Below are positions 3,993-7,012 of a DNA stretch of 64,000 bases, in pieces. Numbering within the stretch: position 1 is the first letter of the stretch; each line of letters begins with the position of its first letter. The position numbers and the translations under genes were made by a program. The notes beneath the pieces are model-generated. The model had not been told where the DNA came from and ran no database searches. It was given only the letters and a program-made list of their open reading frames with translations. This DNA comes from Rossellomorea marisflavi (GTDB lineage Bacteria > Bacillota > Bacilli > Bacillales > Bacillaceae_B), in NCBI RefSeq assembly GCF_009806575.1, contig NZ_CP047095.1, positions 1,554,001-1,618,000 of the forward strand, written 5' to 3'.

Positions 3993-4004
3993 TGCGTTAG
4001 CCCG

Positions 4005-4036
4005 AAAGGCCAAATCATGTCGATTTGGCCTTTTTT
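4005..4036 (+). terminator. Rho-independent terminator of the hemEHY operon
   Basis: AAAGGCCAAATC pairs with GATTTGGCCTTT around a short ATGTC loop and is followed by a run of six Ts. It begins 12 bases after the hemY stop and separates the hem genes from yhgD. Confidence 0.9.
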
Positions 4037-4092
4037 CTTTTCCTTCTTGCTAATGGTGGGCGTATATGGTAAGGTAATTAACGGCAAGAAAT

Positions 4093-4115
4093 TGACCAAA
4101 AATCAAATTTAGTCA
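4093..4115. promoter_or_regulatory. putative YhgD operator in front of yhgD
   Basis: The 23-bp sequence has TGACC at its left end and AGTCA at its right end around a 13-bp AT-rich centre. Two sequences with the same ends and the same 23-bp length lie upstream of yhgE. Its position 10 bp before the regulator's start codon suggests autoregulation by the TetR protein, which is an inference. Confidence 0.6.
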
Positions 4116-4124
4116 TTCAGTCAT

Positions 4125-4706
4125 ATGGAGGTGAAAACCATCGACCGTAAAAAACAGATCGTGGATGCAGCTACTAAATCTTTTTCGCTATTCGGGTATA
4201 AGGCAACGACCATGGACCAGGTTGCAAAGCTTGCGAATGTAGGGAAAGGGACCATCTATACGTTTTTCAGCAACAAAGAAGAGCTGTTCGATGAAATAGC
4301 GTTTTCCCTAATGGATGAAATGAAAGGCAGAGCTGAGAAAGCCATCTCTCCTACCGTCACTTTTTCCGAGAATGTTCATAATGCCCTGTTCTCTATGCTG
4401 GAATATCGGAAAGAGCATAAGCTCACCATCAAACTTTATCAGGAAGCAAGGGAAATGGGCACGCCTGCTGTCTCCGATGCCCTGCAGAAGTTGGAACAGA
4501 TGGTGGTGGAGTTCCTGAGTGAGCGGATATCAAGGGCCATCGAGTCAAAAGCGATCAAACCGTGCAACCCCGAGATGACGGCTTTCGTTATGCTGAAGCT
4601 TTATGTGGCTCTTATCTTCGATTGGGAGCGCGAACGGGGAGAACTCGATAAAGATGAAATCGCCAATCTTTTTAAGCTTTATTTGATTGAAGGGTTATCT
4701 ATTTGA
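4125..4706 (+). CDS. yhgD: TetR/AcrR-family transcriptional regulator YhgD
   Basis: This is a one-component DNA-binding repressor of 193 residues. The N-terminal TetR helix-turn-helix is clear: IVDAATKSFSLFGYKATTMD, then VAKLANVGKGTIYTFFSNKEELF. The C-terminal ligand domain is poorly conserved, as usual. The start is unclear. The ATG at 4125 has no upstream ribosome site, because the GGAGGTG at 4127-4133 lies within the first codons. That site is ideally placed for an ATC codon at 4140, and the residues following it (DRKKQIVDAA) match where homologues begin. The gene lies between hemY and yhgE, and matching operators precede both yhgD and yhgE, so it probably represses both. Confidence 0.88.
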   Translation: MEVKTIDRKKQIVDAATKSFSLFGYKATTMDQVAKLANVGKGTIYTFFSNKEELFDEIAFSLMDEMKGRAEKAISPTVTFSENVHNALFSMLEYRKEHKLTIKLYQEAREMGTPAVSDALQKLEQMVVEFLSERISRAIESKAIKPCNPEMTAFVMLKLYVALIFDWERERGELDKDEIANLFKLYLIEGLSI

Positions 4707-4731
4707 TAGTCCCTTTCTTTTGGAGTGGAAT
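4703..4731 (+). promoter_or_regulatory. possible sigma-A promoter for yhgE
   Basis: TTGATA and TGGAAT are separated by 17 bp. The -35 overlaps the yhgD stop codon and the -10 runs into the first operator, an arrangement that suits repression. The -10 is weak. Confidence 0.4.
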
Positions 4732-4753
4732 GACCAAATGAATAATATGGTCA
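4731..4753. promoter_or_regulatory. putative YhgD operator 1 upstream of yhgE
   Basis: A 23-bp inverted repeat runs from TGACCAAATG to ATGGTCA; the outer arms extend as AATGACCA and TGGTCATT. It shares its first 15 bases with operator 2, which starts 41 bp further on, about four helical turns. Confidence 0.65.
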
Positions 4754-4771
4754 TTTATTTTGCGGCCGATA

Positions 4772-4794
4772 TGACCAAATGAATAAAATAGTCA
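4772..4794. promoter_or_regulatory. putative YhgD operator 2 upstream of yhgE
   Basis: A 23-bp sequence beginning TGACCAAATGAATAA and ending TAGTCA differs from operator 1 at only two positions. It ends 22 bp before the yhgE start codon. Confidence 0.65.
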
Positions 4795-4816: not shown

Positions 4817-7012
4817 ATGTTTAAATCTGCGGGCTCAGAATTTAAAGCCATTTTCAAAAATAAAAAATTATTGATACCGATCATCGCGGTCCTCCTCATA
4901 CCGGTCATGTACAGCGGTATGTTCCTATGGGCCTTCTGGGATCCATATGAACAGCTGAGCGATCTGCCGGTTGCCATCGTGAATAACGATGAAGGCGCCG
5001 ACTTCGAGGGGCAGTCACTTGAAATCGGTTCTGAGCTGGTCAAGAAGCTGAAAGACAGTGATCAGTTCGACTTTCACTTTGTAAATGAGAAGGATGGATA
5101 CAAAAATCTCGAGAAACAGAAATACTATATGCTGGTGGAGATTCCGAAGGACTTCTCAAAGAACGGGACGACATTGCTTGAGGAGCATCCCACAAAGCTT
5201 GCGTTGAAGTATGTACCGAATGAAAGCTTCAACTTTTTGTCCGCCCAGATCGGCGAGACTGCAATGAAAGAAATCAAAGCGAGTCTGTCCAAGTCTGTTT
5301 CTGAAACATATGCAGAAACGATGTTCGATAAAATCGGAGAGCTTGGAGACGGGTTCAAAACGGCGAGTGATTCCGCCTCTGACATTAATAAGGGGGCAGG
5401 AGATCTGGCAAAAGGGGCAGGAAGCCTCAAGGAAAACCTGACAACCCTTGCTGAAAAAAATGTGGAAATGAATAATGGTGTCGAGAAGACCCGCTCAGGT
5501 GCCAAGTCTCTGGCTGACGGTTCAAGCGAGCTGTTGGGAGGCATGGGGCAGCTTTCTGAAAACTACGGAAAACTATATAACGGATCCGAGGATATTCAGG
5601 CCGGAATCAACAGCCTGTCCTCCGGTTTGGTCCAGAGCAGTGAGGGATTGACCCAGGTGGACCAAGGCCTTCAATCCGCTATCGACAATACGGGAAAACT
5701 CCAAACGGGTGCCCAGGAACTAACAGGTAAAATCGGTGAACTGCAGGAAGGGGCGGGCAAGGTGAATACAGGTGCTGAGCAGGTTAACGCCGGTTCGAAG
5801 CAGCTGAAGGAACAGTTGACACCACTCCTTGCCACTCTCCCTGCTGAACAGAGAGCCGCTTTGGAAGGGGCATTGAACCAACTGACCGAGGGTACAGCAT
5901 CCCTTCAACAAGGAACAGGTGCCCTCCAAGAAGGAGCAGGTGCCCTTAAGACGGGAGCGGGTACGCTTGCTTCAGGACTCGGTGCCTTGAATGAAGGACA
6001 AAATTCATTGCTTTCTGGGGTGAATCAGCTTGAAAGTGGATCGGCAGCCCTCCAAGAGGGAGCGGGCAAACTTCAGGCCGGCCAAGGCGAGATCATGAGC
6101 AATTTCGCGCTCCTCAACGGAAAGCTGAATGAAGCCAGAGACGGGACTCAGCGTCTTGCTGCAGGTGCCGGAGAGTTAAGTGCCGGTATGGATCAGCTGT
6201 ATGATGGATCAAGCCAACTGACGGAAGGATCCAGACAGCTCGCAGATGGATCAGCTAAGCTGGCGGATGGATCGACTAAACTTTCTGAAGGAACCGGTGA
6301 GTACGATGAAAAACTGAAGGAAGCATCGGAAAAAGCCAACAGCGTCAAACCGAATGAAGAAACCGCCGACATGATGGCGGCTCCAGTCGATGTGAAAAAT
6401 GAAAAGATCAATCATGTACCGAACTATGGTACAGGGTTTACACCTTATTTCCTTTCACTTGGACTATTCGTCGGTGCATTGCTGATCTCAATCGTCTACC
6501 CGTTAAGGGAACCTGCAGGCATTCCTTCCAATGGAGGAAGCTGGTTCTTCGGTAAACTCATGGTCCTTGCAACCGTAGGGATCATCCAATCGATTGTAGC
6601 AGTCGCCATTCTCCTTTGGGGACTCGGGCTTGAAGTGGAAAGTGTACCGCTGTTCCTTCTATTCTCAGTGGTGACAAGTTTCACATTCCTTGCTCTTATC
6701 CAGATGCTTGTGACGATCCTTGGAGACCCGGGACGCTTCGTTGCCATCGTGATCCTGATTCTTCAATTGACTACGAGTGCAGGAACATTCCCGCTGGAAC
6801 TGATTCCTACCGCTCTTCAGCCGATCAGTGCACTATTGCCGATGACCTATTCGGTGGCAGGGTTCAAGGCGGTCATCTCAAGCGGGGATATGACGGTCAT
6901 GTGGAATAATCTCGGCATCCTCTTTGGATATGCAGCAGTATTTGCGGTGATTACGTTGACATTCTTCATTGTGAAGTTCAAGAAACAGGCAGATCAACCC
7001 GCAGAAGCATAA
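4817..7012 (+). CDS. yhgE: YhgE/Pip-family membrane protein
   Basis: This is a 731-residue integral membrane protein of the YhgE/Pip (phage infection protein) family. A transmembrane helix at about residues 17-39 is followed by a long extracellular region, then a cluster of five or six helices from about residue 530 to the end. The central region, about residues 185-500, is built from many short repeats with Gly-Ala-Gly or Asp-Gly-Ser spaced about seven to eleven residues apart (for example LKENL, LQEGAGALKTGAGTLASG), probably a long coiled stalk. Pip homologues act as phage receptors, but the cellular role is not settled. Tandem operators for the upstream TetR protein suggest drug- or metabolite-induced export. 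Placement after hemEHY raises a porphyrin or haem link, which is only inferred. Confidence 0.9.
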   Translation: MFKSAGSEFKAIFKNKKLLIPIIAVLLIPVMYSGMFLWAFWDPYEQLSDLPVAIVNNDEGADFEGQSLEIGSELVKKLKDSDQFDFHFVNEKDGYKNLEKQKYYMLVEIPKDFSKNGTTLLEEHPTKLALKYVPNESFNFLSAQIGETAMKEIKASLSKSVSETYAETMFDKIGELGDGFKTASDSASDINKGAGDLAKGAGSLKENLTTLAEKNVEMNNGVEKTRSGAKSLADGSSELLGGMGQLSENYGKLYNGSEDIQAGINSLSSGLVQSSEGLTQVDQGLQSAIDNTGKLQTGAQELTGKIGELQEGAGKVNTGAEQVNAGSKQLKEQLTPLLATLPAEQRAALEGALNQLTEGTASLQQGTGALQEGAGALKTGAGTLASGLGALNEGQNSLLSGVNQLESGSAALQEGAGKLQAGQGEIMSNFALLNGKLNEARDGTQRLAAGAGELSAGMDQLYDGSSQLTEGSRQLADGSAKLADGSTKLSEGTGEYDEKLKEASEKANSVKPNEETADMMAAPVDVKNEKINHVPNYGTGFTPYFLSLGLFVGALLISIVYPLREPAGIPSNGGSWFFGKLMVLATVGIIQSIVAVAILLWGLGLEVESVPLFLLFSVVTSFTFLALIQMLVTILGDPGRFVAIVILILQLTTSAGTFPLELIPTALQPISALLPMTYSVAGFKAVISSGDMTVMWNNLGILFGYAAVFAVITLTFFIVKFKKQADQPAEA

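Follow-up and report, generated by a model that had tools for sequence, protein, structure and literature searches.

The 64-kb window analyzed here, the whole stretch of Rossellomorea marisflavi DNA under study, raises the question of which protein reads the TGACC-N13-RGTCA repeats that precede the genes yhgD and yhgE, and how these two genes would be controlled through them. The yhgD gene (4125..4706, forward strand) encodes a TetR-family regulator (Pfam TetR_N, 3.5e-16; TetR_C_24, 2.7e-07) and lies downstream of hemE, hemH, and hemY; its product shares 96% identity with a YhgD of Rossellomorea marisflavi. It is followed by yhgE (4817..7012, forward strand), which encodes a YhgE/Pip family membrane protein, a relative of the phage-infection protein Pip. 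The YhgE sequence scores above both cut-offs of its family models (TIGR03061, 207.5 bits, 9.4e-62; TIGR03062, 223.1 bits, 2.7e-66) and has ABC2-type membrane segments (ABC2_membrane_3). The AlphaFold2 model of YhgD (pLDDT 90.4) has 9 helices and matches TetR-family chains, with the N-terminal HTH and the all-helical C-terminal domain by which the family is recognized.

A sequence-only reading had claimed three copies of the repeat, one 5' of yhgD and two 5' of yhgE. We recovered all three as exact matches in the window at these positions: O1 at 4093-4115 (TGACCAAAAATCAAATTTAGTCA), O2 at 4731-4753 (TGACCAAATGAATAATATGGTCA), and O3 at 4772-4794 (TGACCAAATGAATAAAATAGTCA). As had also been claimed, the starts of the yhgE pair are 41 bp apart (~4 helical turns), and its two copies differ by 2 mismatches. 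O2 (by pattern match and logo) and O3 are assigned to the forward strand and O1, by analogy with relatives, to the reverse strand. The pattern occurs at no other place in the window; shuffled sequence would give 0.29 occurrences on average, and 4 strand-matches, as counted here, were reached in 1 of 100 shuffles. An extra half-site AGTCA (4119..4123, reverse strand) is situated exactly 8 bp past the right half-site of O1; the resulting 31-bp pattern is unique in the genome, and the inner part of O1 itself is a weak match to the operator consensus described below. We are confident, from the comparative evidence that follows, that the three sites are YhgD operators through which yhgD and yhgE would be repressed until a ligand releases the protein, with two dimers predicted on each operator.

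The sequence-only reading had named a lack of conservation in relatives as grounds for abandoning the idea, and the sites proved to be deeply conserved. Two sets of loci were used: a first set of 58 loci from genus and order relatives, searched both 5' of yhgD and between yhgD and yhgE, and a second set of 114 yhgE-linked loci drawn from 80 named GTDB genomes plus a sample across the class. The sets share some genomes and their counts are not independent; de-duplicated logos (84-95 sequences) agree with the counts of both. In the second set, TGACY-N13-RGTCA was found before yhgD in 112 of 114 loci, between yhgD and yhgE in 102 of 114, and before one or both genes in 113 of 114; half-sites at other spacings were not favored. 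Its conservation reaches down to ~40% YhgD identity and extends from Bacillaceae to far more distant relatives; the upstream site is present in each of the seven loci that share <50% identity with the nearest YhgD query. The B. subtilis group is represented by B. halotolerans (L110), which has the same gene pair by hemY and the same 23-bp sites; it differs from the window in having one operator before yhgE, not two, and its yhgE site is more diverged. An O2/O3-type spacing of 41-44 bp is shared by 25 of the 27 distinct loci with a double operator. The intergenic region of locus L042 carries two sites 79 bp apart, and one class-level locus has four intergenic sites with spacings of 76, 74, and 74.

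The spacing between half-sites was scanned in the 58 first-set loci with TGACY-Nk-RGTCA for every k from 0 to 30. In the 58 upstream regions, N13 was found in 46, N21 in 32, and N5 in 1; in 57 intergenic regions, N13 was found in 52, N5 in 3, and N22 in 2. When the same loci were dinucleotide-shuffled, the N13 counts were 0 upstream and 0.02 intergenic, and a chance origin of the sites is ruled out by these shuffles together with the conservation.

The bare pattern TGACY-N13-RGTCA occurs at 15 places in the whole 4.55-Mb genome versus 12 for a reversed-pattern control. It is thus unspecific, and the finding rests on the clustering of sites at the locus and on their conservation. A strict directional pattern, TGACYNAATGN7TRGTCA, for which we estimate ~0.03 expected matches per genome, gave 43 matches in 61 genomes, 42 of them at yhgD/yhgE (<=250 bp from the yhgD gene), compared with 1 match for its control. 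With the bare pattern at background and a single strict site off yhgD/yhgE in these 61 genomes, a wider YhgD regulon was rejected; with 42 of 43 strict matches at yhgD/yhgE, YhgD would appear to be an autoregulator that acts purely locally. The same concentration of strict matches at conserved yhgD-yhgE loci makes YhgD by far the likeliest protein to bind the sites and act on yhgD and yhgE. The earlier proposal that YhgD represses itself and YhgE is accordingly favored by the conservation and the local regulon, with binding predicted from sequence.

The operators have a direction. De-duplicated consensus sequences were TGACCAAATGAACAAAATRGTCA before yhgE and TGACYAAATTGTTCATTTRGTCA before yhgD, and the latter is the reverse complement of the former except for an A/T-rich part near one end; the operator is therefore directional and flipped between the two genes. 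The outer ends look invariant in the logos since the search pattern fixed them. Conservation extends beyond the outer TGAC/GTCA to an inner half-site, which reads TGAA (positions 9-12) before yhgE and TTCA (positions 12-15) before yhgD and in both cases lies 8 bp away from one of the outer half-sites. Before yhgD, perfect extra half-sites were found at -8 in 17 of 159 operators and at +8 in 50 of 159, with 2 more at -4, so that 67 of 159 have one extra half-site exactly 8 bp outside. At the intergenic sites, extras were merely scattered (2 at -9, 3 at +32), and 3 perfect inner half-sites were present at +8. The N13, N5, and N21 spacings fit one 8-bp lattice of half-sites, with the two intergenic N22 cases standing besides.

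We infer that the natural unit is the 15-bp TGACY-N5-RGTCA, with half-sites one turn apart and the length of a single-dimer TetR operator. Dimer-of-dimers operators of the TetR family measure 22-32 bp (CprB, 22 bp; QacR, 28 bp) and single-dimer operators 15-17 bp (PMC4150764). With its 23 bp, extended to 31 bp where the extra half-site is present, the YhgD operator falls within the former range and would fit the QacR/CprB class if read as a pair of 15-bp dimer sites that overlap with an 8-bp offset. Like the QacR and CprB operators, it would consist of overlapping, imperfectly palindromic dimer sites. It differs from them in the half-site TGACY, the 8-bp offset of the dimer sites, the optional outer half-sites, and in that two-dimer binding is predicted by analogy; the identity of YhgD to QacR is low, about 20%.

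The strongest competitor to this arrangement holds that a single YhgD dimer contacts the outer TGACY/RGTCA ends only and that the extras 8 bp away are independent additional sites. The outer ends are indeed the most constant part, though fixed by the pattern search, and one unusual dimer could in principle read the two outer half-sites. However, the centers of the outer half-sites are 18 bp apart (~1.7 turns) and face different sides of the DNA, the operator exceeds the known single-dimer length, the inner half-sites are conserved, and the extras lie at exactly 8 bp. We regard the single-dimer arrangement as unlikely. As an extension of the two-dimer reading, the operator may be an expandable 8-bp ladder of half-sites that takes two or three dimers, with a rung added in a lineage-specific manner and the yhgE operator flipped; we advance this tentatively, as a possibility somewhat short of an even case. 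If true, the added rung is at +8 in Rossellomorea and near relatives versus -8 in distant class-level loci, and autoregulation and repression of yhgE would differ in sensitivity.

The position of the operators relative to candidate promoters suggests how two-dimer binding by YhgD would act. A candidate yhgD promoter (4047..4075, forward strand; TTGCTA-17 bp-TAAGGT, TG before the -10) is a weak match and was absent from the list of a stricter promoter scan; O1 lies between it and the yhgD start. In 93 de-duplicated relatives, the best -10 mostly ends 14-18 bases before the yhgD operator, which places the operator at approximately +8 to +35 of the transcript. A repressor bound just 3' of the yhgD promoter would block RNA polymerase loading or clearance. 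For yhgE, a candidate promoter (TTGGAG 4720-4725, 17 bp, TAATAT 4743-4748) scored only modestly above shuffled controls, and promoter scans of the window and relatives did not establish a clear sigma-A promoter; O2 may cover its -10 (4743-4748), a weak assignment. In the proposed circuit, unliganded YhgD would occupy O1 and repress yhgD, and would occupy O2 and O3 and repress yhgE, with two dimers per 23-bp operator, as for QacR and CprB, and possibly a further dimer on O1 through the half-site at 4119-4123. Binding of a ligand would then free YhgD from its operators.

The protein itself offers some hints to the ligand. The region of the DNA-binding helix, KGTIYTFF, is nearly invariant among YhgD homologues, and the residues Gly112, Cys147, Glu107, Tyr160, and His98 vary little or not at all. 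The nearest solved folds to the YhgD model, at ~20% identity, include FadR, FasR, AibR, and QacR, and are mostly acyl-CoA sensors. The acyl-CoA-responsive regulators FadR (B. subtilis, B. halodurans), FasR, and AibR are found among both the nearest folds (3whb, 5gpa, 6o6n, 5k7z) and the best NCBIfam near-hits. YhgD nevertheless falls far under the cut-off of the FadR model NF053878 (44.6 versus 200 bits), and its target genes are others. A YhgE homologue is mutated in ginkgolic-acid-nonsensitive isolates of E. faecalis (PMC8754111), a weak hint to membrane-active lipids. Glutamate represses the yhgD transcript of B. subtilis ~9-fold (PMC2743287), which counts against a simple YhgD circuit, as such a circuit does not predict the effect.

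Next in standing is the possibility that YhgD senses haem or a porphyrin intermediate and that the linkage to hemEHY is functional, as for the haem-sensing TetR regulators HrtR and FhtR. Such sensors exist, and FhtR binds two operators in its own promoter, with palindromes of 14 nt (PMC7858072). Like yhgD, the HrtR and FhtR genes adjoin a membrane exporter gene; hemY lies within ~3.5 kb in 55 of 77 named yhgE-linked loci, and His98 and Cys147 belong to the invariant or nearly invariant residues. In contrast, the target of HrtR and FhtR is HrtBA and that predicted for YhgD is YhgE, which is not HrtBA, no hrtBA gene was identified beside yhgD at the locus, the nearest solved folds point mostly to acyl-CoA, and the hem linkage is lost in many genomes. 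The hem genes also carry no operator, and terminators part hemY, yhgD, and yhgE. A terminator-like hairpin after hemY (4004..4034, forward strand; 13 pairs, T tail) lies between the hem genes and yhgD, and an intrinsic-terminator-like hairpin with a T-rich tail spans the yhgD end (4689..4716, forward strand; -11.4 kcal/mol, z -2.27). These terminators indicate that the haem-gene linkage reflects synteny and not co-transcription; hem genes, yhgD, and yhgE probably form separate transcription units with limited read-through. We therefore consider haem sensing improbable. The earlier description of a YhgD regulon next to the haem genes stands as to the adjacency and falls as to the haem genes being members, since terminators lie between.

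The 5' arm of the 4689-4716 hairpin is formed by the last yhgD codons (AAGGNTTATC) and its 3' arm, GATARTCCTT, lies at and after the stop. A hairpin with a pyrimidine-rich 3' arm and T-tail recurs at the yhgD end in many families and in most relatives displayed; the automatic terminator count in relatives (27 of 75) is an undercount, as the tail is hidden by longer folds. A conserved pyrimidine tract after yhgD, considered as a novel element, turned out to be the 3' arm and tail of this hairpin.

The sites might also be bound by another regulator, or by a nucleoid or competence factor, since YhgD binding is deduced from sequence. This is still less probable than haem sensing, as the sites track the yhgD-yhgE pair over distant families, with almost none at other places in the 61 genomes. 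Homologues lacking yhgE are mostly without sites: among 15 TetR homologues with no detected adjacent yhgE, the upstream site is present in 5 and absent in 10. These cases include L075, which is cut by a contig end, L145 and L151, with a 70% identical YhgD, and L186, which has the upstream site and no adjacent yhgE. In addition, several paralogous yhgD2-yhgE2 loci have their own copy. An RNA role for the repeats, as hairpins in leaders or terminators instead of operators on DNA, is hardly credible and was rejected: the sites do lie within probable leaders and O2 folds weakly (-6.6 kcal/mol), but folding of O1 and O3 yields no more than -1.1 and -0.3 kcal/mol, positions 5/19 hold a non-pairing C/A in 20 of 95 distinct sites, the extra half-sites and their exact spacing obey a DNA lattice, the consensus sites of O1 and O2 are oppositely oriented, and termination is explained by the separate, better hairpin at 4689-4716.

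The YhgD operator is thus well supported as a new operator for an ordinary TetR-type mechanism. The sequence-only reading knew of no defined operator for this regulator, and we likewise found none in the papers searched, a search outside of which lay regulon databases and subscription journals. The YhgD/YhgE pair is widespread in Bacillaceae and more distant Bacilli, and its regulator becomes open to testing once a deeply conserved operator is defined; compounds could be screened for the inducer with a reporter built on that operator, and the inducer would point to what YhgE handles.

Several genomes of the genus contain the second pair, yhgD2-yhgE2 (L041, L043, L044, and L047-L052), with its own intergenic operator. 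Before yhgD2, only a degenerate site is present, with the half-site TTTGGTCA after a conserved TTTGAACGAAACACT-like stretch, suggesting altered autoregulation. No Shine-Dalgarno sequence precedes the yhgD ATG at 4125, and one close relative (L003) has CTG in its place. A GGAGGTG stretch at 4128-4134 is suitably placed for an ATC codon at 4140, which L002 and L003 share, and the true start may lie later, at ~4140, with a rare AUC as initiation codon. Upstream, the hemH (ferrochelatase) frame from 1579 is broken near 1730-1745 and resumes in another frame (ORF 1742-2506), the cause being either a G-run sequencing error or a true frameshift.
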